The notes below the pieces were generated by a model. It was not told the DNA's origin. It was given only the letters and a program-made list of their open reading frames with translations, and did not search any database. Both the position numbers and the translations under genes were made by a program. DNA of 64,000 nt from NCBI GenBank assembly GCA_001972305.1, contig BDDD01000177.1:50172-114171 (forward strand), given 5' to 3'. The DNA is from Cephalotus follicularis (taxonomy: Eukaryota; Streptophyta; Magnoliopsida; Oxalidales; Cephalotaceae). Of this stretch, positions 4,444 to 63,978 are shown in pieces. How positions within the stretch are numbered: the first letter of the stretch is position 1; every line of letters begins with the position of its first letter.

Positions 4444-5514
4444 GAAGCTTACACTGCTGATAGAACGTAAAGCTATGCATTGTTGAGATTGGAAATGGTT
4501 TAAATTGACAATTTTGTCTTTTGACATAATTAATTTCATTTAGCACTCCCCGATAGAAAAGGTGTTTCTAGTAAGTTTAAAAACACTAATCAATTCCTCT
4601 TCAAATTGTCTATGATATATGAGTGGCATGCGTTTTTGCAAGCTTGGAAACACATATTTGAGTTCCTCATATTCTTTCTCTGATTACATTTTCCTGATAT
4701 TGAAAAAACCCTCCAATGAAAAAGGATACAAGAATAGGAATTACAACCACAAATAAATAGAAAATGCAGAGGGAAACTACTTTCGCCATCAGCATTTTAA
4801 GTATACAAGCCTATAAACAGTCTAAACCAACAGTGATATGATGGAAAAGAAGAGGGAAAGGAAGAAAAAAGAAGAATATGGTAAACACAGATGGACAAAG
4901 AATGGGTGATAAAAGGGGTCAATCGGACTATAACACTCCTGTGGTCAGTTTGATACAGTAAGGCATAACCTCATCCCCGTGGGCATTATTATGGAATGCC
5001 CACACATTTATCTCAAAGAAATTGAGGCTGTACAAGATCTCAGTTTTTCGGTCTTTCATGGAATCCTACATGATTCGATTCGATCACTTCACTCACAGCT
5101 TTATGAGTCTCTGGTGAGATAATGTTTAACGTCAAATGTAAAGCCCGAAAGGAGGGTAGAAACGAAATCTTGCGAGTATGGTGAACATCAACATTTTCAA
5201 CAATAATGATACACATTTTCAACCCTACATGATAGCTTATTTATCTGAAATTGTAATTCAAAATGAAGGGTCCAAGTCATATCTAAAGTTCCAATAGAAA
5301 GTAATTTCTTTAAATGGAAGGCAACAAGAATATCTGTGGATAGAATAATACACTGTTTATGTTGTGATGATCACAACTTGACACAATCTCATATTTATTG
5401 CTTGGTGAAAAAGAATCTTGCTTGAAATCTGCGCCTGTTTATGTACAAGATTATTTAACTTATCCGTATGTGTTGATATGGAGTAATGATCAGTTGCATG
5501 TAGTGGGATTTTAC
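3546..5514. other. Intergenic region
   Basis: No coding region is supported. It contains an A10 tract at about 3710-3720, a long CT microsatellite (listed separately) and otherwise AT-rich unique sequence. The part from about 5000 to 5514 would be the 3' UTR or terminator region of the minus-strand ARM gene. Confidence 0.5.
4396..4440. repeat. (CT)n microsatellite
   Basis: About 22 perfect CT repeats in a row, between two intergenic AT-rich stretches. Length is likely polymorphic. Confidence 0.95.
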
Positions 5515-8203
5515 CTATCTTAGCAACTCCAATGCAGTTTCAATCAGTGATTGCATTGTGGTGTTGTGCCTGCTTAGTCCAACAATACCGGAGAAGATAT
5601 TGAAGTTCTCAAGTTCTGCTGTGGTCTGCAAGACACACTCTAGTTCCTTCTCCATCCCTAGCTCCTTGAATATACCTACATTTGTCGCTTTGTCTCTCAT
5701 CATCCAAATTGCCAACTCTATGGTAAACCTTCTGATTCTTGGAACCTTGATCGGTGGATGTTGGTGCTTCCTCAGAATCTGGACTAATGCATTTGCTAAT
5801 TCTGCCTCTTTAATCTCAGCTGTTTCAAACATGATGCTTGATTCTTGAGAAGACATGAATTTGAAAGTACACGCTGCTAGTCCAACCATTACTTCCTGTA
5901 GTTTGCTTTCTTCGGACATGATTGCCTTGAGGATCTGCCATGGGGTGAATCGGTTGGTTAAAATCTACTTAACAGTGTTCTATTATTCTGCATAATATTT
6001 GTGAGAGGAGAATGAAAAACTTTGATCCTGAGCCTCTACTGACTTAATTTGATGTTAAAATGACTGTAAGGAAAGACAAGATAAAAGCAAATAAGTTCCA
6101 TAGTCATTAGTCTTCGAAAGCACTTACTGTGGGTGTTGCAGCTGTGACACCCTTCAACCGGTGGTAGTAATCTGCAGCACCATAGGTGCACAAATTCCTT
6201 AAGATTCTTGCAGCATTCACTCGAAGAAGTGGATCTCCTAATGCTTCAGCAAGCCTCTCAAGCAAGTTCAAGCTCAAAATGCGATGACAATTACTCTTGC
6301 TCTCTAATGCCAGCATTGCTAGTGCTTCTCCAGCAGCGGTTTTCACGTCATTCTGATCTTCCGGCAAACCCTGTTTGAAAAAGATGTTGAACAACTCCTT
6401 GAGAACTCCACCTGTCTCCCCAATCCTCTCCGTTGCTTCCTCTTCCAGTGCCAAACTGGTTAATATTTCTATTCCCAGTTTTTGCAGCATTGGTTGTCTC
6501 TCCCCGTATCGCAAAATATCTCTGATGTTGCTGATTGTGAAAACAATCTCTGAAATCTCCTTTCGAAGATGTTTTCCTGTGGGGCCTGTTGTGTTTGCCA
6601 GCATCTTCACCAATTGTAGAGATCGTTTAACTGTCAAAATCTGAGATGTTGCGACATTTTCATCCTTCAAAAACCTCTCTTCAGCGTGTGTGAAATCTAT
6701 GATTTTAGGGAGGAGACCCCTCGTACTTCCAATCTTTCCACAGTTATCATGGTCACGTGCAAGTTTCTTCAACATGAGAAGCCCTATATGATTAAATGTC
6801 CAAAACCCATAACCTGCGTGATCGAATATGATTTTCTTCTCGCCAATTTCATCGGAGGCACCACTGGAGCTTCTATTGGTTTGGAGCAGAGATGATATTG
6901 ACTCCATTGCTCCTGGTATGCCAGCAACCCTTAAGGAGTTTTGCTTTTTGCCTGCTAGTTTTGTCAGTATTTCTGCAGCTGATTGCCGGATCTCTTCTTC
7001 TTGTGGATCTTTCCAATTCAACATCTCGACTAATGTTTCTATCACCGATAAGTTTATTCCAATCTTTTGGAGGGTGTCATCGGAGAACCGCAAACTGCTT
7101 GCAAATTGGCGAAGTATTCTTGCTCCAATGAGCTGCTCATCTGGAGATGAAGCCAACAGATCCATACCAAAAGAAACCAAATCCATTTTCAAGCCATCAA
7201 AAATGCTCCCGAAAACACATTTTGAGTAGGCATCATAGAAAAACCGCTTGATTGAAACCACACCTGAAGCCCCCAACTCACATTCTGTAGTTACCTTTTC
7301 CAAAAGTTTACAGTAGACGACCTTCCACTCCCAGTAAACTTTCTCAAGCAGAAACAATGAAGCCTCGGCCAAGGCCAAGGAATAAAAGATAATCAAAGCA
7401 GCTTTCCGGTTCCTTTTGTCAGTATCTCCTTCTTCTACCTCACCGTAGTTTTGCTTGATAAGCTTCATCAATGAGAGAACCACACAGGCCAATGCAGATG
7501 CAAGCTGGAGCCAATTGAGAAGCTTACTGACATTTCTAGTGAGAAAAACCCATTGAGCATAAGGTAGGAGAGGGACTTCTGAGCTTTTCCATGTACGGGT
7601 AGGCAGCCTTAGGCAACTCAAGTTTCCAGGATTTCCTGCATCATTGCTCCCTGACGTTTCTCTTATGCGTTGACTACGCTTACTGGCTAGAATTTTGGGA
7701 TGCAAGATTGCTTTCGAAGTTTTGAGGAGAAAGTCATGTGATCTTGATCTCAGTGCCCTGAAGCTGTTAATCCCAGCATCAGTGATTGACCATGTAGCTT
7801 GGTGTTGCCATTCAAGTTCATGGCTACGGCTAAATATACGAGTTCCCTCAATCAACAAAATAGTGGTGATAAACCAGAAGTCAGTTTTCTCTAAGGTGAT
7901 GGCAAAACCGCCTAGAAGCACAACCGTTGCCCAGATAAACCCAAGAGTACCTAGCCCTGTAGCTGTCTTTTCAAGGATTGCCAGCCTGAGTGCAAAGAGA
8001 GTCAGTTTCTTCTCTGGTGCTCGAACTGCCGGAGTTGTTGGAGGAACAACAACAGAACTTGCATCACTCCTGCCTGTCTTCTCTATGCAGCTCTGGGGTT
8101 CAAAAATAGTGTTGCTTGAGCAACATGTTTCACTTAGTTTGCTAAGCTCAGTAATTTGCAGATGAATACTTTCATCATCTTGTGCAGAATGACTGCGATC
8201 CAT
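5515..8203 (-). CDS. Membrane-anchored ARM-repeat protein, two exons
   Basis: Coding exons 6128-8203 (692 codons, ATG at 8203) and 5515-5934 (stop TAG), joined in phase 0 with donor ACA|GTAAGT and acceptor GGCAG|ATC; predicted 831 residues. The N-terminal 60 residues are polar. Hydrophobic segments follow at about 82-103, 108-122, 229-250 and 268-290, giving a probable multi-pass anchor, after which about 500 residues are helical ARM-like repeats (for example ARILRQFASSLRF and ARILRNLCTYG, the latter just before the splice). It matches in layout and wording a plant-only family annotated as ARM repeat superfamily protein (Arabidopsis At3g06210, At4g14280, At5g18980, from memory). No biochemical role is known to me. 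ARM repeats usually bind proteins. The second-exon frame is clean and ends in LELLR. The gene looks intact. Confidence 0.88.
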
Positions 8204-12270: not shown

Positions 12271-12491
12271 GAGAATATTTTTGTTTAGGGTTTTATGGAA
12301 TCTCTTCTTTCGTTTTTTTTTCTTGGGTTATTTTGTATGCTTTGTGGATAACATATTGTTCAGTCTTTTTAGTCATAAACAAAATATCAGTTCATGCTCG
12401 ACTATTGAAGAATATAAGGATGGTAATTTAGATCATTAAGCGTGGATCAACCTAAAAAAAAAATTATTAATAACACATGAGTAAGTATAAT

Positions 12492-13590
12492 TGTTGATAC
12501 AGAAATCATTCTCTCAACAGTATCCTACGTGGGGGACTTTGATTTGTTAAGAGAAACGCTTGTCACTGATGCCTGTGAGGAAGAAACCGATCTCGGACAC
12601 CTGCACAAGTAGCAACAATGGTGAAGGCCCAGGAGGTTGTTCTCCCGGGGACACTCCGACGCTCAAGTTAATCAAGTACAGATGAAAGATTATACTCTCT
12701 TGAATGTAAAAATTGCTGACCTTTGTTCAGTGTGTTGAACTTGTATTTATAGTGGAATTTGGTAGCTGTTAGAGCGTGTAAATCGGATGTGATCATTATC
12801 CCCTAGGAAGTGCCGAGGATTTCGGACATTCCTTATCTCCGTCAGTAATGTAGTACTTTCCTTTATCTCCTCTTTCCTTTTGTTGTAGTTGATTAGGATT
12901 CTATCTCCTTGTTTGGATAGGTATGGATCCCGTGAAATCTGGTGAAGTTATTCCCTTTATCCTATCTTCCAAATCTGTTGGTTGTCATCCTTATCTCCTT
13001 TACTTAGAGGATAAGGATCCCTGGAATTTAGGCTAACTCCCTATCCACATTCCGTGAATGAGGAGGAGACCTTCTATCCGAGGAGAGGAGCTGATGTGAG
13101 GCCAATGAGATAGTCGGCCCATGTCCTCGAAATCTTCTCGGTCCATAGACTTGTATTTAAATTGGATGGCCTTTGGTTCTTTGTCTGAGGAAATGGATCT
13201 TGGCAGTGGAACCATTGGGCGTGTCCTCGGCACTTATGCCGAGGAGAGGTCCTCCTTGAGCTATTTCTTTCTTGACTCCCCCTACTACCAGTTCACTGAT
13301 TACGGAGTCACTTGTAATAGATCGCTTGTTATGTGACCGAGGGTATCCTCGGCTGGGTTGCTTCAAATGGTGTCCTCGGACCCGGAACCGAGGAGGTTGA
13401 TTATTGTACTGGAATCACTGGGTGTGTCCTCGGCACTTGTGCCGAGGAAGAAACCTCCCTTTACCACTGTTATGTTGGCGTACGTGCTTCCTCTGCCTTT
13501 AATTCATTAATTCTTATCTCTTCGTACACTTGGCCAGGTAATCAAGAGGACACGTGTTGCTTTGAATTTGACTTAATTTTCCCCACATCA
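12492..13590 (-). mobile_element. Solo LTR 1 (gypsy family of the 39-kb element), 5-bp TSD
   Basis: On the minus strand the unit starts TGATGTGGGG at 13590 and ends GTATCAACA at 12492, giving TG..CA ends. It is flanked by the direct repeat ATAAT (12487-12491 and 13591-13595). Its end (CGTAGGATACTGTTG, ATTTCTGTATCAACA) and a block with GTGTCCCCGGGA, GAACAACCTCCTGG match the LTR end of the Ty3/gypsy element at 38.9-39.4 kb. No internal region or second LTR is present, so it is a solo LTR left by LTR-LTR recombination. It lies 0.2 kb upstream of the guanylate kinase start and may influence that promoter. Confidence 0.85.
13225..13447. repeat. Three palindromic CCTCGG...CCGAGG motifs inside solo LTR 1
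   Basis: Near-perfect 20-nt hairpin words occur at 13225-13244, 13374-13393 and 13428-13447, for example CCTCGGCACTTGTGCCGAGG. The first and third also share flanking sequence (a GGG(C/T)GTGT lead and a CCTCC tail), so they are copies of a longer module inside the LTR. Confidence 0.8.
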
Positions 13591-34545: not shown

Positions 34546-36724
34546 TCACTTGGTGACATGCTTGATAAACCAATTCAGCATGTCCTTATGGGCCTCCTCA
34601 GCTTTCTTGACAGCAACTTTATCATCAGTTTGGTACTTCAATGTCCACCCATGAGCTGTTCCAGGGTATATTTTCACAAAGCTATCGAACTGCAACATAT
34701 AAATGAACAACAGTTAGATACCAATCATGGGTTTTGATATGCAAAACAGAATATAAAAGATAAACCGTCTCCTTTATGAAGAGAATCTTGAAAGTATCTG
34801 TTGCAAGTTTCATCAGATTGCTTGAAAACTTCTATGAAACTAGTAATTTTTACAACAGCATGAATACACACACACTTCTTCAAATTTATAATCTTGGAGT
34901 TATAAATTCAAACAACAAAATTTTGAACCATGTCACTAGCTACATGATAATAACAAGCACCAGGCAAAGGCATCATTAACAAAATCTAGAAAATATTTAA
35001 AGTATACAATCAATGTGTGAAGTTCTTATTCAAAGACCTCTCACCTTATTACGTTTTTTTGATAAAATCTCCTCATATTTTATAAGTTGTTGTGGCGTCA
35101 AACCACCGTCCTTCTCAGCTGCCAAAATAGCTGTTGGAATGTTGACATCTGAAACATATCTGTCCATCAGCCACATATATAGATATGAACTGATGAGCTT
35201 CAAAAGTTTGGAACTAACCTTGGATGTCATCAGTTACGAGCCAACTTGGATGCAACAGAACTGTAGCTTTAATGTCATTACCGCTTGCTAGTTTCACTGC
35301 TACCTTCCCTGACATAGACGCAAGCAACCAAAGATTAGTAGCTGAATTGATCAGTCTAGGCCTCCTAATAATAATATTGCATGCAACATTGTAGACTCTT
35401 GCTTTATTAATTAAAAAGAACGGGAAACTACTCACCTCCCCAGCAAAAACCTGCTACTCCTATGGAAGACACACCTTTGGCTTTTAGAGCAGCTATTACT
35501 TTCTTGGCATCTTCAGCTCCTTTGTCCTACAAGGGAAATTAATCAAATTAACAAAGGGGCTATATGCATCTGTCACTCTTTCTCTTGCAGAAGTTATGCG
35601 TGGCTATGTATTGGTATTCCCTAGAGTATGCTTTGCTATATGTTAATGTTACACACCATAATGGCACTTCTACACGTTTTCAATACTTCAATGTAACATG
35701 AATCTCAAGCAATTCCATAAATGGCACTTCAAATTACTTCAACCACCCTTTAGGCATGTATATAGTCTTCATTTTTATTTTTTTAATCCTTCATTGAAAT
35801 GAGGTCTTTCTTATTTATTTCAATGAGCTTGGTGACCTCTCTCAAATAAAAATGGCCAAATGTTCCTCAGTTACAATGTAATTGAAACTGAATCCTTTTA
35901 TTTCCACAAGACTTTATAATAACACATGCCTACATGTTTCGTTATATTATCAAAAAATGGCAAACTAGTAATCTATATATTTGGGTTGTTACACATTTTT
36001 ATCAACATTGTGTCCTGCAATGGTATTTGTATCAATATTGAAACAAGAACTTTACCGTGTTATGAAGTTTTTTCCAGGCTTCAAAATCAAAATTGGGTTT
36101 GGTAATATTAATAACAGGATCACCATAGAAGAAATCAGGAACCACAGCCAAGTATCCAGCAGCTGCAACTTTGTCTGCAACTGTCCTGTATAGAAAGGTC
36201 ATGAAAAGCATATTATATATCATGGGGAAAAAAAAAAAGCAGGATCCATTGCCACTTAATGACAAACTAAAAATTTTATCAACCCATCTTGTACTATTCA
36301 ATAAATCATCATCCAAGATTGTATGGTATAAAATTAGTTAGGCAACTGACAATGGATTCTATTCAAAAANNNNNNNNNNNNNNNNNNNNNNNNNGATTAC
36401 ATATATGAATAGTGATATATATATATATTAGATTCTTAAAAAAGGACCCATACCTCAAATTGGGTTTTTTATACCCTGCAAAAATTATATTTCAAGAAAT
36501 CAAATCAGTAAAAAGCAACCTCCAATAAAACACCAATAAAAAAAGAGGCTTGTTAAGAAAAAAAATAAAAAATAAAAAAAGAGATGCATTTGATTGTTAC
36601 CATAAACATCAGAGATTAAAATGATGGTGGCAAGCCCAACAAGAGAAGGACCAGCTACATAAGCCTTGAGGCCACCAATATTAGACACAGACCCAACACC
36701 CGATGTTGCATTAAGGCTAGTCAT
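34546..36724 (-). CDS. Dienelactone-hydrolase-like protein, copy B
   Basis: Seven coding exons on the minus strand: 36601-36724, 36454-36475, 36056-36185, 35436-35526, 35219-35308, 35045-35148 and 34546-34689. Phases all agree; 234 residues. The triad residues are kept: Cys120 in GFCWG, Asp166 in AAEKD and His200 in AHGW. The N-terminal segment (MTSLNATSGVGSVSNIGG) lacks the Cys-rich/NPxYG start seen in copies A and C, and wording around the triad (AAEKD instead of GAEID, IYPGTAHGW instead of SHGW) differs, so this is the most diverged copy. The 22-nt microexon is present. The assembly gap is in intron 2 and does not touch coding sequence. The large inverted repeat begins about 450 bp upstream of this start codon. 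Confidence 0.9.
36370..36394. other. Assembly gap (25 N)
   Basis: Twenty-five N bases inside intron 2 of DLH copy B, next to an A-run and an AT-repeat, probably a difficult simple-sequence stretch. The true length is unknown. Confidence 0.99.
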
Positions 36725-37179
36725 GGTATCTCTCTTACTTACAAGTTAGGTGCATTTAGTTACAGCTCCAGTGATGTACAGGAGGCAGCTAAATAAATAG
36801 GAGTGACTTGTTGGTGATAGGCGTTGAATAAGTCAATCGTAAATCATGGCGGCTAGTAATAAGGACAATTCCATAAATAGAGTGGCTTTGTAATAATGTT
36901 GAATAAGTCAACCGTATCAAACGCTTTGTTCTGTTTTTGTCCTAAAGTCATACAAAAGCTGTCCATAAATTTAAGAAATCTCATAAATTTAGTGATTGTA
37001 TAGTCATATAAGAATTCTTGATATTCTGTTGACGGTTTGTACTTTGATTAAGCCTGGATTTAGGTTGTCCATATTTGTACAAAGAAGACTATACATATAT
37101 AGAATAACTTTCTTTCTCTCCTAACTAACAATAGATTCTCATTTGTTTCTTCACTCTGTTTTGTTTTACACAATATCTG
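36725..37179. promoter_or_regulatory. DLH copy B upstream region
   Basis: Contains a TATTTATT word on the minus strand at about 36791-36803, suitable as a TATA element, and an imperfect direct repeat GTTGAATAAGTCAA at about 36823 and 36897. It ends at the 9-bp target duplication of the inverted-repeat element (37171-37179). Confidence 0.4.
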
Positions 37180-38816
37180 TAGTTTATTCCCCTTATACCA
37201 CTTTTATAAAAACTTATTCCCACAATACCATTAAAACCAAACTTATTCTCAATCTACCATCCCAAACCTCCAATACACTATCCAAACCTATATCCAAGCC
37301 AACTTTAAAGATACTGATGACATAATGGGTCCTACTAGTTTTAATATTTGTTTTCTTCTTATATTTATTTACCGAAACTTCAGAATGGTTCGGCTCAAGA
37401 ACTAAAAATATTCCAAATGATTTTATGAACAAAATGAGTCCAATATTCAATATTTTTTGAGCCTTACATTTTGAATTCTCTTGCTTAAACGTATGCAATC
37501 TTTAACTGACATTTGACCCAAAACCACTTAACTTGAAAAACTGTATTTTAGCTCATTTTTCTTTCAACTCCATAATTATAAAGCTAATACTTGTAAATAC
37601 AATAAATCATACCCAAGTAGCTCTGTTCAAGTGTAAAAATGCACGATTTATATACGTAAAATTCACACATAAATGTGTTCATCAATGACGTTAGGCTGAT
37701 AATATACACTATAGCGAGTCTGGACCTAATAATGCACCTAAATGACATGCACAATATTCAATTAGTAATATACACGATAATTAGGCCGGACCTAACAGTG
37801 CTCATAAATCTTGTAATTAGTGAAGTATATTAATTTTTAATATTGTGATTACATTTTTATTATATATATCATGATCATTCGTAGTATATATATATATTAA
37901 TTAATTTTATATATTAAATTTATATAATTATTGATTTGTGTTTGTTAATATTTTTTAATTAAAATCGCTAATTAATGGGTTTTCTATATTTTTTAAATTT
38001 GGTTAAATTTATATTTTAAATTATTTCATTAATTTATATTATTGATCTATGGTTCAATATTATTTTCGCGTGATTGAATTTATTCAAAGCATCATCAAAT
38101 ATATATATATACTACGAATGATCATGATATATATAATAAAAATGTTATCACAATATTAAAAATTAATATACTTTACTAATTACAAGATTTATGAGCACTG
38201 CTAGGTCCGGCCTAATTATCGTGTATATTTCTAATCGAATATTGTGCATGTCATTTAGGTGCATTATTAGGTCCAGCCTCGCTATAGTGTATATTATCAG
38301 CCTAACGTCATTGATGAACACATTTATGTGTGAATTTTAGGTATATAAATCGTGCATTTTTACACTTGAACAGAGCTACTTGGGTATGATTTATTGTATT
38401 TACAAGTATTAGCTTTATAATTATGGAGGAGAAAGAAAAATGAGCTAAAATGCAGTTTTTCAAGTTAAGTGGTTTGGGGTCAAATGTCAGTTAAAGAGTG
38501 CATACGTTTAAGCAAGAGAATTCAAAATGTAAGGCTCAAAAAATATTGAATATTGGACTCATTTTGTTCATAAAATTATTTGAAATATTTTTAGTTCTTG
38601 AGCCGAACCATTCTGAAGCTCCGATAAATAAATATAAGAAGAAAACAAATATTAAAACTAGTGGGACCTATGATGACATCAGCATCTTTAAGGTTGGCTT
38701 GGATATAGGTTTGGATAGTGTATTGGAGGTTTGGGATGGTAGATTGGGAATAAGTTTGGTTTTAATGGTATTGTGGGAATAAGTTTTTATAAAAGTGGTA
38801 TAAGGGGAATAAACTC
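37180..38816. mobile_element. 1,637-bp foldback element (719-bp arms), probable Mutator-like
   Basis: Left arm 37180-37898 and right arm 38098-38816 are reverse complements with exact positional symmetry (paired positions sum to 75996) and only scattered substitutions. The loop (37899-38097) is 199 bp of AT-rich sequence. The flanks CAATATCTG (37171-37179) and CAATATCGG (38817-38825) match in 8 of 9 bases, so the insertion probably made a 9-bp duplication as Mutator-like elements do. The two 94-residue open frames in the arms are mirror images of each other and are not genes. No transposase is encoded. The absence of indels between arms suggests recent duplication or gene conversion. Confidence 0.85.
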
Positions 38817-38929
38817 CAATATCGGTTACTACCTCAATTATTCGCGGGGAAGTTAGTGCGGAGAGAGAGCATCCACTTGATTCGTGAAAGGGCGTCATTT
38901 CAAAATTCTTGAAAATATATATTATTATA

Positions 38930-39389
38930 TGATATGAGAAAAACCCCTTTTAAACCTGATGACACGTGTCAGGGGAGGAGGACTGTCCTCCTAGGAATGA
39001 TAGCATGACCTATGTGTCTTGTCATCAATTAAGGGAAAGGTCTCCCAAACAGTCTGACACGCCACACAGGCCAGGAAGCCAGTCTCGCACGCCTGCGCAG
39101 CATCAATCACAGACGTTCCTATAAATACCAGTTCAACAGTCAATATAAAGGTCAGTCATTTTCTTCTAGTACAAAAAGAACCTCAATACTCTCTGTACAA
39201 CTGCTAACTTGAGTGTCGGAGTGTCCCCGGGACAACAACCTCCTGGACCTTCTACTTTTCTCTCTTGCTTGTGCAGGGATCAACAACCATCACTCGACAC
39301 CCTTTCTCGGACAGATTCTCGCGTTTCCTCTAAACAAATCAAGCCTTTACACGTGGGGTACTGTTGACGGAAGGATTTCTGCATCAACA
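38930..39389 (+). repeat. 5' LTR of the gypsy element
   Basis: The start was placed by similarity to solo LTR 1: both have TGAT(G/A)TG then GA-rich sequence and an ACACGTGTC block about 33 bp inside. The end ATCAACA lies one base before the primer-binding site. It includes the GTGTCCCCGGGACAACAACC block shared with solo LTR 1. The element's 3' LTR is missing, so LTR age cannot be computed here. Confidence 0.75.
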
Positions 39390-39434
39390 GTTGGCGCCGT
39401 CTGTGGGAAACGCAGCAAAAAGTCATCTAGAATC

Positions 39435-41824
39435 ATGCCTCCGAGGAAGAACGCTAACAACTACTCCACAGCAGGTGGAAGCCAGTGCACGGCGGGGAAC
39501 GACCCAGCCCAAATCAGTCAAGTTGCCATGGATATCGAACAGGTTCCGGTTACGGGGGAGCAGCTCAATCGTCTGCTCCAAGGGGTGGAGCGCAATACCG
39601 ATTTGTTGGTCACTACGTTGGCCAACCAACAGCAGCCAGCCGGGCCTGTCCAGCAAGTGGTCCGAGGAGTTTCAGGTCCCAACAGACAAGAGGTGGAAAC
39701 TCGGCACCCACAAGGTGCCAGGCGAAACCCGCTGAGGGGAGACGAACTTCCCCTTAGGCGGTCAGAGGACCATGTTCCCCTGGGGAGGAGACCTGAGATC
39801 AACGCATCTCAGCGGGCAGAGTTCTCGACCGCCCGGGATCAACCTAACGATCCCAGGAGAGCGCGTCCTGAGCGCCAGTCAATGGAGGTAGACCCCCAAG
39901 GGGAGGCCAAAGGTGTAGAGCAGGCGCCAGCGCACACTAACGCTTCGCGCAGGGTAGGAGCGGAGCAGGGGAGCAGACACGACCACACAGCCGCTGTGGC
40001 TGGGGGGTCGCGTGTCTCTAGCAGGGTTAGGAATATCGAAGACGTGGAGCAAGCGATGAACAGAAGGCTTGAGGAGGTGGAGAAAAGGCTCCAAGGAGCC
40101 AAGAAGCCGAAGGGATACCTGGCGGAGGTGCGCAGCCTCAGTGCCCATCCGTTCACGACAGAGATCATGGCGGAGCGCATCCCCAGTGGGTTCCGGCTGA
40201 CAAGTATGACGGGTCAAAGGACCCCCTCCAGCATGTCCGCACCTACATCCAGACTATGTTGGTACACCAGGCTTCAGACGCCACGCTCTGACGAGGGTTC
40301 CCATCCACACTGACTGGAACCGCCCAGTCATGGTTCTCGACCCTGGCCCAGAAGTTAGTTGAGGACTTTGATCAATTCACGGAGCTGTTCGTCACCAAAT
40401 TCCTCAATAGCACCACGCAGAGGAGGAATGTCACCCATCTGATCAATGTGGTGCAAGGAAGGGACGAGTCTTTGAGGGACTACCTGACCAGGTTCAACAA
40501 GGAGTCTCTCACGGGGAAGGACCTGGAACCATCTTTCGCCATGGCGGCATTAAGCAACGGCCTGAGGAACAACTCCTCTTTCACCTTCTCCCTTCTGAAG
40601 AGACCCGCCTTGGACATGGCAGACCTGCTGAGGAGGGCAGAGAGATACGTCAACGCGGAAGAAGAGATGGCGGCCAGAAAACAAAAAACCCCCTGGCCGG
40701 GCCATCAGGAGGAGAGGGAAGACCATTCACGAAATGCTCCTGGAAAGAAAGAGAAGAGGAGAGAGAGAACGGACCTGACCAAGGACGACCTTAGACACAA
40801 GCTCTCTAGAATGGAGGGCCCTACTCAGGGAGGGGCGCCGATCCTATCCTACAACCACTTCGCCCCCCTCCTAGACACCCGTACCAGGATACTGGCCGTG
40901 GAGCAGGATAAGGTCCCCATCCAGTGGCCCGAGAAGTTGAGGTCCCCAACAGAGAGATGGGACGTGAAGAAATACTGCCGGTACCATTGTGACCATGGAC
41001 ACGATACCGAGGAATGCAGGCAACTGAAGAATCAGATTGAGGATCTGATCCGAAGAGGGTATTTACGCAAGTATGTCGATAGAGACAGAGACTCTCCCCG
41101 GGGAAGGAGGGAGCAAAGGAGAGAAGAGGCTCCCCGGCAGGAGGAAGAGCTGCAGCAAAAACCCAGGGGTGTTATCCACACAATCTCTGGGGGGGTCGCT
41201 TCTGGCGGTGACCACAAGAATGGCAGGAAAGCCTACGGGAGGCAGTCCTTGGCAGTGCAGCAGGTCCATCATAGCAAGAGGCTGAGGACTGGGGGAGACG
41301 AGGAGGTCATATCCTTCTTGGAGGTGGACTATGAGGGAGTACGTCTCCCTCACGACGATCCAGTGGTGGTGACTCTAATGGTGGAGCTCTTCACCATGAA
41401 GAGGATCTTGACTGACAGCGGCAGCTCGGCCGATATTCTGTACAAACATGCCTTTGATCAACTCAGGATACCGGTCGACCAGTTGAAGCCCGTGAAGACC
41501 CCACTAGTCGGCTTTGCTGGGGAGATAGTCCATCCTCTGGGATTCATCGACCTTTCGGTGGTTGCAGGCACAGCTCCATGCCAAACCCAGGTGCAGATGA
41601 CTTTCTTGGTGGTTGACACGCCAAGCCCATACAACGCGATAATCGGGCGACCGAGGCTGAACCTGATGGAAGCAATAGTGTCCACGAGGCACTTACTCAT
41701 GAAGTTTCCTACGAGGTTTGGTGTGGGAGAAGCCATAGGAGACCAGCAGACGGCCAGGCAGTGCTACAAGACGTCAGTCACTGACCGGGGAAAGGACAAA
41801 GTGCTTATGGTAGAGAACGTATAG
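39435..41824 (+). pseudogene. gypsy gag-protease region, frameshifted
   Basis: The gag frame starts at ATG 39435 (MPPRKNANNYS) and is Arg/Glu-rich. A one-base deletion at about 40200 ends the first frame at 40313, and an in-frame TGA follows near 40290 in the restored frame. From 40448 the frame is open to 41824, carrying the retrotransposon gag core, a CCHC-like zinc knuckle (C-x3-C-x3-H-x4-C at about 40976-41018), a charged linker and an aspartic protease with the active-site DSGSS (about 41413-41427). Gag would pack the RNA and the protease would process the polyprotein. The breaks make this copy non-functional. Confidence 0.85.
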
Positions 41825-41983
41825 CTCCGTGGGGACATGGAACCCGAGCGGCCACAGCCTGCTGAAGATGTGCTCCAGGTGCCCCTGGAAGCAGGCAACT
41901 CCGAGTGAGTCTTCCAAGTCGGCTCACAGCTCGGAGAGGCGGAGAAGGGGGGATTAATAACATTCCTCCGGGATAACAGAGAT

Positions 41984-43141
41984 GTGTTCGCCTGGACGGC
42001 GGAGGAAGTGTCTGGCATCAGCCCAAGCGTAATGGTCCACAAACTAAGCGTGGACCCGACAAGGACCCCAACCAAGCAGAAGAAGAGAAACTTTGCTCCC
42101 GAGCGTCAGCAAGCGATAGCCGATGAGGTGAGCAAGCTCATGCAGGCAGGGTTCATACGGGAGGTGCATTACTCAGACTGGCTGACAAACCCGGTTCTAG
42201 TCAAAAAAGCAAACGGCAAGTGGAGGATGTGCATCGACTTCACAGACCTCAACAAAGCTTGTCCCAAGGATCACTTCCCTCTTCCAAAGATAGACCAGCT
42301 GGTGGATGCGACCTCTGGCTACAGAATGTTGAGCTTCCTAGATGCTTACTCAGGGTATAATCAAGTCCCTATGCATAAGCCCGACGAGGAAAAAACAACC
42401 TTTATCACGGACCGGGAGATGTACTGCTACAAGGTTATGCCCTTTGGTCTGAAGAACGTAGGGGCCACCTACCAACGACTGGTCAATAAGATTTTTGAGT
42501 CCCAGATTGGGAGAAATATGGAGGTCTATATTGATGACATGCTCGTCAAAACTTCGGCCAGGAGCCCCCATATCAAAGACCTAGAGAAAACATTTGAGGT
42601 GCTGAGAAGATATCAAATGAAACTCAACCCTTCCAAGTGTACGTTTGGGGTCACCTCAGGAAAGTTCCTGGGATTCATGGTTTCGGGCAGAGGAGTAGAG
42701 GCCAACCCGGAGAAGATCTCGGCGGTCCAAGATCTAAGGCCCCCCCAAACCATCAGGGATGTGCACAAGCTGAGTGGAAGGATAGCGGCCCTGAGCCGGT
42801 TTGTTTCGAAGTCAGCAGAGAAATGTCTCCCGTTCTTTAAGGTGCTGAGGGACCCCAAGGGGTTTTCCTGGTCAGATGAATGCCAAGCAGCCTTCGACAA
42901 GTTGAAGGGGTACCTGACTTCCCCGCCCCTGATCTCAAAACCTAAGGACGGGGAAGACTGGTATTTGTACCTTGCAGTCACCCCGGGCGCAGTGAGTGCA
43001 GTGCTGGTCAGAGAGGAAGAGAGGGTTCAAAGGCCGGTGTACTATGTGAGCAAGGCGCTAAATGATGCTGAGGGGAGGTACCCGGAGGTGGAGAAGTTCG
43101 CCTATGCTTTGATCATCGCGGCGAGGAAGAGAGAGAACTGA
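41984..43141 (+). pseudogene. gypsy reverse transcriptase and partial RNase H
   Basis: Open frame of 385 residues containing the RT palm motifs (KWRMCIDFTDLNKACPKDHF; MPFGLKN; active site YIDDMLVK, with Ile in place of the more usual Val) and the first part of RNase H (YLAVTPGAVSAVLV, PVYYVSKALNDAE, then YPEVEKFAYALI). It ends abruptly in a GA-rich stretch. Two stops (TAG at 41822-41824 and TGA at about 41906) separate it from the protease frame. Integrase is absent. It would have copied element RNA into DNA. Confidence 0.88.
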
Positions 43142-44072: not shown

Positions 44073-44438
44073 TCTCTCATGCTCTCATCAAGCATTCCAA
44101 AAAATTGAACTCATAATTTATATTTTATAAATCCAATCGTTGAATTGATTTCTATCCATGTAGATCATTCAAACTAAGTTTTAAGTCAATTTGATATATA
44201 TAATTATTCAATTTTTTGGACATTTACGCATAATAATTCAATGGTTATAAATAATTCGTAATCTCCATTGAATTATTATGTGTAAATGTACAAAATTAAA
44301 TTTATATAGATATTTAATCAACTTAAAAATTGATGTACATTATCTACATAAATAAAATATCAAATTAAACGGTTATATTTATAAAATATAAATCATAAGT
44401 CTAATTTTTTGGGGTGCTTAATAAGAGCATAAAAGAGG
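44073..44438. mobile_element. Palindromic MITE-like inverted repeat
   Basis: The left half (from CTCTCATGCTCTCATCAAGC) and the right half, read in reverse complement (from CTCTTTTATGCTCTTATTAAGC), stay alignable for about 170 bp and meet at the hairpin CATAATAATTCAATGG / CCATTGAATTATTATG around a 20-bp loop (about 44247-44266). The arms are clearly more diverged than those of the 37-kb element. No coding frame. The family is not identified. Confidence 0.75.
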
Positions 44439-62225: not shown

Positions 62226-62545
62226 GGCAAGATGCGGACTTTGTCCGTAAGGGCTTATCTTCTGAAGACTTCGTAGACCTTCGGGGATGTAATGCCTTGT
62301 AGGAAGGTGAGAACTTTGCTAGTAAGGGCTTATTGTCCGAAAGTTTCGTAGGCTTTCAGAGATGTAATGTCTTATAAGAAGGTGAGAACCTTGCTTGTAA
62401 GGGCTTTTCATTCGAAGATTTCGTAGGCCTTCGGAGATGTGATGCCTTGTAGGAAGGTGAGAATCTTGTCGTAAGGGCTTTTCATCCAAAGATTTCGTAG
62501 GACTTCAGAGATGTGATGCATTGAAGGAAGGTGGGAACCTTAAAT
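62226..62545. repeat. 75-bp minisatellite, at least four copies
   Basis: The anchor GTAAGGGCTT occurs at 62247, 62322, 62397 and 62471, giving spacings of 75, 75 and 74 bp. Each unit reads roughly GTAAGGGCTTxTC, GAAGATTTCGTAGGCCTTC, GGAGATGTGATGCC and TTGTAGGAAGGTGAGAACC. Copies differ at about 10-20 percent of positions. The period is a multiple of three but stops occur in the plus-strand frame I checked. Confidence 0.88.
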
Positions 62546-63225: not shown

Positions 63226-63978
63226 TCCCTCTTTTTATTTCTTTTTTGGATAGTCCTTCCTCCTCTCAAAAAAAAAAAAAAAAGAAAAAATTCATGTCGT
63301 GACATTGTCATAAGACTTTTATGTACTAACTTGTCATTAATAACATTATTATTTCTTATAACACTACAATTTTATTAATTAAACTTTGATTAAATCTGTA
63401 TCGCATACCTCCACTTTAAATTTATTCAATTTGGTATGTAAACTTTGAAAATTGAACAATGTTATACATACTATTAATATAAAGTTGAATAGGGCTAGAC
63501 AAAAAACCAGAGAATCCGAGAACACGATCTAATCTGAATCTGATACTTTTTTGGATTTGGATCCTAGAATTCTATAATTTGACGAATTCGGATCGAATTG
63601 GTCCCTCTTTTTATTTTTATTGGGTGAGTCCTCTCTCTTAAAAAAAAAAATTTCATATTGTGACATAGTCGTAAAAGTCTTATGTATGTATTTTCTTATA
63701 ACAATTAACCAACAAGAAACATTAGTTTAAAACTACTATTTCGGTTGTTAAACTTTGATTAAATGTGTAATAGATATCTCCACTTTAAATGTATTCAATT
63801 GGGTATGTGAACTCTGAAAATGGACAATGTTATACATATCGTTACCATGACGTTAAATAGAGCTAGACCAAAAACCTGAGAATCCGAGAACATGATCCAA
63901 TCCGAATCGAGTACTTTTTTTTAATTCAAATCCTATAATTCTATAATCCAATGAGTTTGGATCAAATTGGATCCTAGA
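63226..63978. repeat. 376-bp tandem duplication at the window edge
   Basis: The block starting TCCCTCTTTTTATTT at 63226 restarts at 63602 and runs in parallel to about 63977, including an A-run, a TTAAACTTTGATTAAAT word, a CCACTTTAAAT(T/G)TATTCAAT word, and GAGAATCCGAGAACA. Sequence after 63977 may begin a third copy cut by the window end. Copies differ by many substitutions and small indels, so the duplication is not recent. Confidence 0.85.

Follow-up and report, generated by a model that had tools for sequence, protein, structure and literature searches.

The inverted repeat and its surroundings

The window analysed here, a stretch of 64,000 nucleotides from the genome of Cephalotus follicularis (contig BDDD01000177.1, positions 50,172–114,171 of the forward strand), contains an array of genes whose exons resemble dienelactone hydrolase (DLH), and upstream of one of these lies a large inverted repeat (Table 1; positions are those of the window). 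Of four exon-bearing frames tested from this neighbouring gene, two hit PF01738 just under the cut-off of 21 bits (E 8.5e-4 and 1.3e-3; 19.4 and 18.8 bits), and the other two gave no hit. A distance of 454 bp separates the left edge of the repeat from the ATG of the DLH-like gene, as placed by eye, in agreement with the approximately 450 bp given in an earlier note on this DNA. A run of 25 Ns within the same gene (36370–36394) is an assembly gap.

Table 1. Features of the inverted repeat and the adjacent gene
Feature	Position	Strand	Basis
DLH-like gene	34549–36726	-	ATG at 36726 and extent by eye from reading frames; PF01738 hits just under cut-off
Left target-site duplication (TSD), CAATATCTG	37171–37179	+	8/9 bases matching
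Non-autonomous foldback element with long terminal inverted repeats (TIRs), most likely Mutator-like, 1637 bp	37180–38816		arms and edges; related copies sharing these ends, with 9-bp TSDs
Left arm (TIR), 719 bp	37180–37898	+	arm comparison; derived state at 18/25 arm differences
Three 18-bp direct repeats	37183–37200, 37213–37230, 37242–37259	+	spacing 30 and 29 bp
Unpaired middle, inner part of one ancestral arm with partner deleted	37899–38097		alignment to L009, L012, L014
Right arm (TIR), 719 bp	38098–38816	-	arm comparison; derived state at 6/25 arm differences, 1 undecided
Mirror set of three 18-bp repeats in right arm	38737–38813	-	arm comparison
Right TSD, CAATATCGG	38817–38825	+	8/9 bases matching

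An ungapped base-by-base comparison from 37180 confirmed the two arms, which are 199 bp apart and differ at 25 of 719 positions with no insertion or deletion. One of these mismatches is the outermost base (T at 37180, C at 38816) and the other 24 are internal. Automatic repeat finding placed the arms at 37178–37898 and 38098–38818, 97% complementary and 199 nt apart. The arms described in the earlier note (719 bp, collinear, paired positions summing to 75996, scattered substitutions) were thus recovered unchanged on re-measurement, as were the eight matching bases out of nine in the flanks. The two ends of the window copy read TAGTTTATTCCCC and GAGTTTATTCCCC.

None of the 12 frames of at least 50 aa overlapping the repeat reached the Pfam cut-off. 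A 56-aa frame with a weak PF18513 hit (E 0.0044; 17.7 bits, cut-off 25) was taken as chance, and the arms yielded no transposase domain in the Pfam scan of these frames. The same 12 frames contained no Pfam-detectable host gene fragment between the TIRs, which is the Pack-MULE trait. There was no Rfam hit in the window at gathering thresholds, and a bacterial promoter scan, a method not applicable to a plant, found 12 promoters compared to 14.9 in shuffled sequence.

Close to its outer end, each arm carries three direct repeats of 18 bp, which in the arm consensus read TTTTTTCCCCTTATACCA, CTTATTCCCACAATACCA and CTTATTCCCAATCTACCA. All three agree at 12 of the 18 columns, a level that none of 60 Markov-sampled controls attained; the best pair taken by itself stands out less, since 4 of 200 such controls equalled it. 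Maize Mutator TIRs are described as carrying a site of approximately 32 bp for the transposase MURA (PMC3310237), and by analogy with that site the 18-bp repeats are possible candidates for transposase binding.

Several other repeats lie in the window. To the right of the element is a remnant of an LTR retrotransposon (approximately 39213–43141) with a reverse transcriptase/RNase H frame (PF00078, PF17919, PF17917). The frames before the reverse transcriptase look gag-like, with no Pfam hit in the one scanned, and self-comparison of the window gave no second direct LTR and one inverted match of 69% at 12489–12752. Between this remnant and the next DLH copy is a second, less perfect palindrome (44073–44436, 364 bp, 76% self-complementary), which looks like another miniature element (MITE), its ends and duplication being unclear by eye. 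Tandem repeats occur at 62246–62541 (75 bp, 4 copies) and 63279–63947 (369 bp, 1.8 copies).

Related copies, target-site duplications and classification

A search of the 1.58-Gb C. follicularis genome with the left arm returned at least 46 matches on 30 contigs, at 84–100% identity, both figures including the window's own two arms. Among the matches listed, 39 of 46 begin at arm position 1 or 2, and arms face each other as +/- pairs on 16 of the 30 contigs. Scoring covered 40 of 2052 first-look candidates, so the 46 matches are a minimum and the copy number of the family is likely to be higher. The loci retrieved (29 others plus the window, with longer versions of up to 10 kb for 11 of the 29) include 18 with two usable arms, where element sizes range from 1366 to 2722 bp. 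The consensus end of the family, from the arm alignment, is GAGTTTTTTCCCC.

Sixteen elements, in which both ends could be placed within 3 bases, were used to count target-site duplications. Ten carry exact 9/9 duplications and three match at 8/9 (the window copy, L014 and L016), while two have exact 8/8 duplications (L020, L023) and one has none (L009). The mean flank match is 0.88 at 9 bp compared to 0.32–0.38 at 7, 8, 10 and 11 bp, and in swapped-flank controls, pairing each left flank with the right flanks of other elements, none of 240 combinations reached 8/9 (the maximum of 7 occurred once). L017 and L026, in which the arm match began more than 3 bases from the end, were left out of this count; at the projected ends their flanks match at 5 and 7 of 9 bases respectively. 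The duplicated sequences are of mixed composition and differ between copies.

The inverted repeat is a DNA transposon insertion. The earlier note had proposed searching the genome with the arm, and had named a lack of such copies among the signs of an inert palindrome. The search yielded further copies that end in the same way and are flanked by 9-bp duplications, on which ground we reject a local palindrome or assembly artefact. A gap of 25 Ns lies some 800 bp from the element and palindromes are hard to assemble, but an inert local inverted duplication or a misassembly would also have to account for the same arms on 29 further contigs, for 9-bp duplications of differing sequence, and for arms separated by 24 internal substitutions, no indels and a single-copy middle; we regard the probability of such an origin as close to negligible. 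The striking 719-bp palindrome is thereby explained as an ordinary transposon landing. The window's own duplication contains one mismatch and the two end bases of the element differ (T versus G), so that mutation since insertion is required.

An empty site was not found when the joined flanks of the 16 elements were compared with the fetched loci, there being no foreign match across a junction; one match flagged as spanning, for L011, proved to be its own locus and the re-fetched copy L006. Comparison of the window flanks with the other DLH upstream regions in the window gave only short pieces at chance level. At L042 the left flank of the element copy (1–523) is 98.7% identical to a sequence 5 kb away (5181–5701), and this copy, whose far end was not found, seems from these alignments to have landed inside a repeat. 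One exact 20-base pattern had no match in IMG/VR, and the whole element had none in plasmid and phage collections, as expected for a plant repeat. Six arm sub-sequences searched in an open-access library returned one unrelated bacterial paper and nothing relevant, and we do not present the family as previously undescribed.

Mutator-like elements (MULEs) are characterised by TSDs of 9–11 bp and TIRs of typically 100–500 bp (PMC3310237). The family duplicates 9 bp, and its TIRs (719 bp in the window, approximately 900 bp in near-full-length copies) are long, indeed longer than typical, while almost all of the element consists of its inverted arms, with little or no middle, as in Foldback elements. 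The element is therefore very probably a non-autonomous foldback DNA transposon with long TIRs, of Mutator-like type, an assignment to superfamily that rests on TSD and TIR length because the cognate transposase was not found. The ends and TSDs of the other copies give strong support to the transposon half of the earlier note, its reading of the repeat as a Mutator-like element with long TIRs that duplicates 9 bp. We propose that a MURA-type transposase supplied from elsewhere would bind the 18-bp motifs at both ends, then cut and paste the element, the copy upstream of the DLH-like gene being one such landing.

With the MULE transposase model (PF10551), 150 matches were scored and listed from 982 candidates, and no transposase with these ends was present at the eight loci examined among the 150. 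One of these matches (L056, G000:C312:131000-139500) lies between inverted repeats of more than 700 bp with 99% identity; it represents a different long-TIR MULE family, which may be recent.

Two further loci, L038 and L039, bear on an origin outside Mutator, e.g. from a CACTA-type transposon or an undescribed TIR superfamily with 9-bp duplications. At both, a Transpos_assoc domain (PF13963), which we take to be typical of CACTA transposases, lies directly inside one arm, and L039 has a hAT dimerisation hit further in; together with the failure to link a MULE transposase to the family at any of the eight loci (of 150 listed), this could be read in favour of such an origin. However, the sequence shared with the family stops sharply (...GCATTAAT, then unrelated sequence) and the PF13963 match begins at profile position 17 of 74, which gives the domain the look of something captured or inserted. 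In addition, the duplications of CACTA elements are 3 bp long and their ends begin with CACTA/G, compared to 9-bp duplications and GAG ends here, and we consider a superfamily other than Mutator very unlikely. L038 and L039 are near-duplicates (approximately 96% over several kb, including one arm and its flank and the transposase-associated and hAT fragments), either a duplicated locus or uncollapsed haplotypes, and the 10 kb covered contained no second arm. We also considered whether a CACTA-type transposase element might have had its 5' end duplicated head-to-head to give the arms, in the style of Mu killer, and set this aside as unproven because the junction is sharp, the two loci count as one, and the frame is not kept (judged by eye, the shared part before the junction has a one-base length change relative to other copies). 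From their sequence context the domains at L038 and L039 look like captured or inserted transposon debris rather than the family's own gene, and these loci may be cases of Pack-MULEs.

The element thus belongs to an already known kind, the closest being MuTAnT of Medicago truncatula, a group of foldback MULEs (PMC4486113). As described there, MuTAnT elements are also non-autonomous, with hairpin-forming TIRs that occupy almost the whole element, 9-nt TSDs, many copies (218) and frequent locations near genes. They differ in size (the first described was 292 bp with 144-bp TIRs, and the family spans ca. 200 bp to over 1.6 kb), in targeting TA microsatellites and in having a mudrA-coding partner, whereas the Cephalotus family has arms of up to approximately 900 bp, mixed-sequence TSDs and no partner found, and is likened to MuTAnT by description and not by sequence. 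Likeness by description likewise extends to the FARE/Foldback group of Arabidopsis, now classed with MULEs (PMC4486113; also cited in PMC3169594), which has long palindromic ends in common, and to Tm1, a Mutator/Foldback family of root-knot nematodes with foldback-like TIRs. In the account of PMC3169594, TSDs of Tm1 are commonest at 9 bp (8–10 bp in 45 of 53 complete elements) and mean identity of TIR pairs is 93%, but Tm1 belongs to animals, its TIRs are modular and its transposase is Phantom-like. With ends, duplication length and near-full-length form now defined, the Cephalotus family can be masked by annotators of this genome.

Near-full-length copies and the history of the arms

Six copies (L009, L012, L014, L015, L016 and L025) are near full length, at 1859–1893 bp, and match their own reverse complements at 92–96% over ungapped columns. 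Their half-arms extend past position 714 almost to the centre, giving an estimated arm length of approximately 900 bp. In an alignment with L009, L012 and L014, a single gap of 254 columns opens in the window copy just before 37895, and the missing block covers the inner left arm and the centre (approximately 250 bp). Because this block has been lost, the 199-bp middle is the inner portion of the opposite arm, which no longer has a partner. Palindromes commonly lose sequence at their tips. The 199-bp loop of the earlier note therefore holds as a spacing, and as a structure it is not a separate loop but a remnant of the inner arm after deletion. An apparent flipping of the centre between copies, viewed by eye, was discounted: in the copies inspected, its orientation follows which arm type is on the left in the arm tree, and thus is merely the orientation of insertion.

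A tree was built from 44 arms reaching from the first 20 positions to beyond 640, including both arms of 14 elements. The arms of the window copy are sisters in this tree (100/97, from a bootstrap that had not fully settled), as are those of L014 (97/72), and in the remaining 12 of the 14 elements the two arms are not sisters. By identity, the window copy is the only one of the 14 whose arms are closest to each other (0.965 versus 0.947 and 0.960). Since this sets it apart from most copies, one of its arms probably overwrote the other, judging from these sequence relationships; a possible alternative is a parent element whose two arms were already of one type. The polarity of the 25 arm differences (Table 1) was assigned against the majority of the 42 other arms, and the differences are somewhat clustered, 11 of the 24 internal ones lying within 117 bp (p ~0.02). 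Overwriting, if it took place, would have followed the insertion and come about through gene conversion or a template switch inside the hairpin.

The predicted RNA hairpin and the neighbouring gene

The whole element is predicted to fold as RNA with a minimum free energy of -1155 kcal/mol on the + strand and -1143 kcal/mol on the - strand, compared to -298 to -399 kcal/mol for five other 1637-nt stretches of the window. The predicted folds contain 700 (+) and 705 (-) pairs between mirror positions, and the longest unbroken helix on the + strand is 132 with G-U pairs counted. The earlier note had expected a perfect double-stranded stem, which the 24 internal mismatches contradict. Any transcript across the element would nonetheless fold into a stem of approximately 700 bp that could be diced into siRNAs, which would be a by-product rather than a demonstrated function.

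The 24 internal arm differences give no hint of selection for pairing in an RNA stem: seven retain G-U pairing on the + strand, seven on the - strand and ten are transversions, and since the G-U-compatible differences are equal in number we see no bias towards a stem on one strand. As the hairpin is a trait of the whole family, no local function at the DLH-like gene is needed to explain it.

These observations bear on whether the element is a working small-RNA locus, a possibility raised by the earlier note, whose hairpin would be diced into siRNAs controlling the gene through methylation or looping of the DLH promoter. The exceptional folding energy relative to the rest of the window and the position a few hundred bases upstream of the ATG are consistent with such a role, as are published precedents for inverted repeats near genes. 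For one Arabidopsis accession, the review PMC12595863 reports 24-nt siRNAs from approximately 486 of the 634 inverted repeats located no more than 3 kb from a gene, and approximately 68% of these repeats are likely derived from transposable elements, particularly MITEs of the MuDR family; the same source describes a 260-bp MITE, 600 bp upstream of sunflower HaWRKY6, which works via siRNAs. Like these, the Cephalotus element is an inverted repeat placed some hundreds of bases upstream of its neighbouring gene; the precedent for which siRNA and chromatin data exist is the HaWRKY6 element. The balance of the arm differences between the strands and the presence of the palindrome throughout the family argue against a working locus, and on this combination of predicted folding and analogy we consider control of the DLH-like gene by the element a plausible but tentative idea that is less likely than not. 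A related comparison is with Mu killer of maize, also an inverted duplication of Mutator class, for which read-through into a hairpin RNA has been proposed (PMC3440606); Mu killer is, as presented there, a single locus containing mudrA, whereas the Cephalotus element is multi-copy and has no recognised transposase sequence.

A broader and still more speculative conjecture, which we rate as improbable, concerns the family as a whole. By spreading as an almost perfect palindrome of 1.9 kb whose arms re-copy each other, it might distribute ready-made genes for long-hairpin RNA, with the window copy (re-symmetrised, and so close to the DLH start) acting as a switch in cis and the family as a silencer in trans of its own transposase. 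If small RNAs were found, the locus would offer a natural test case for long inverted repeats altering the expression of a downstream gene, and the neighbouring copies in the DLH array would provide possible controls.
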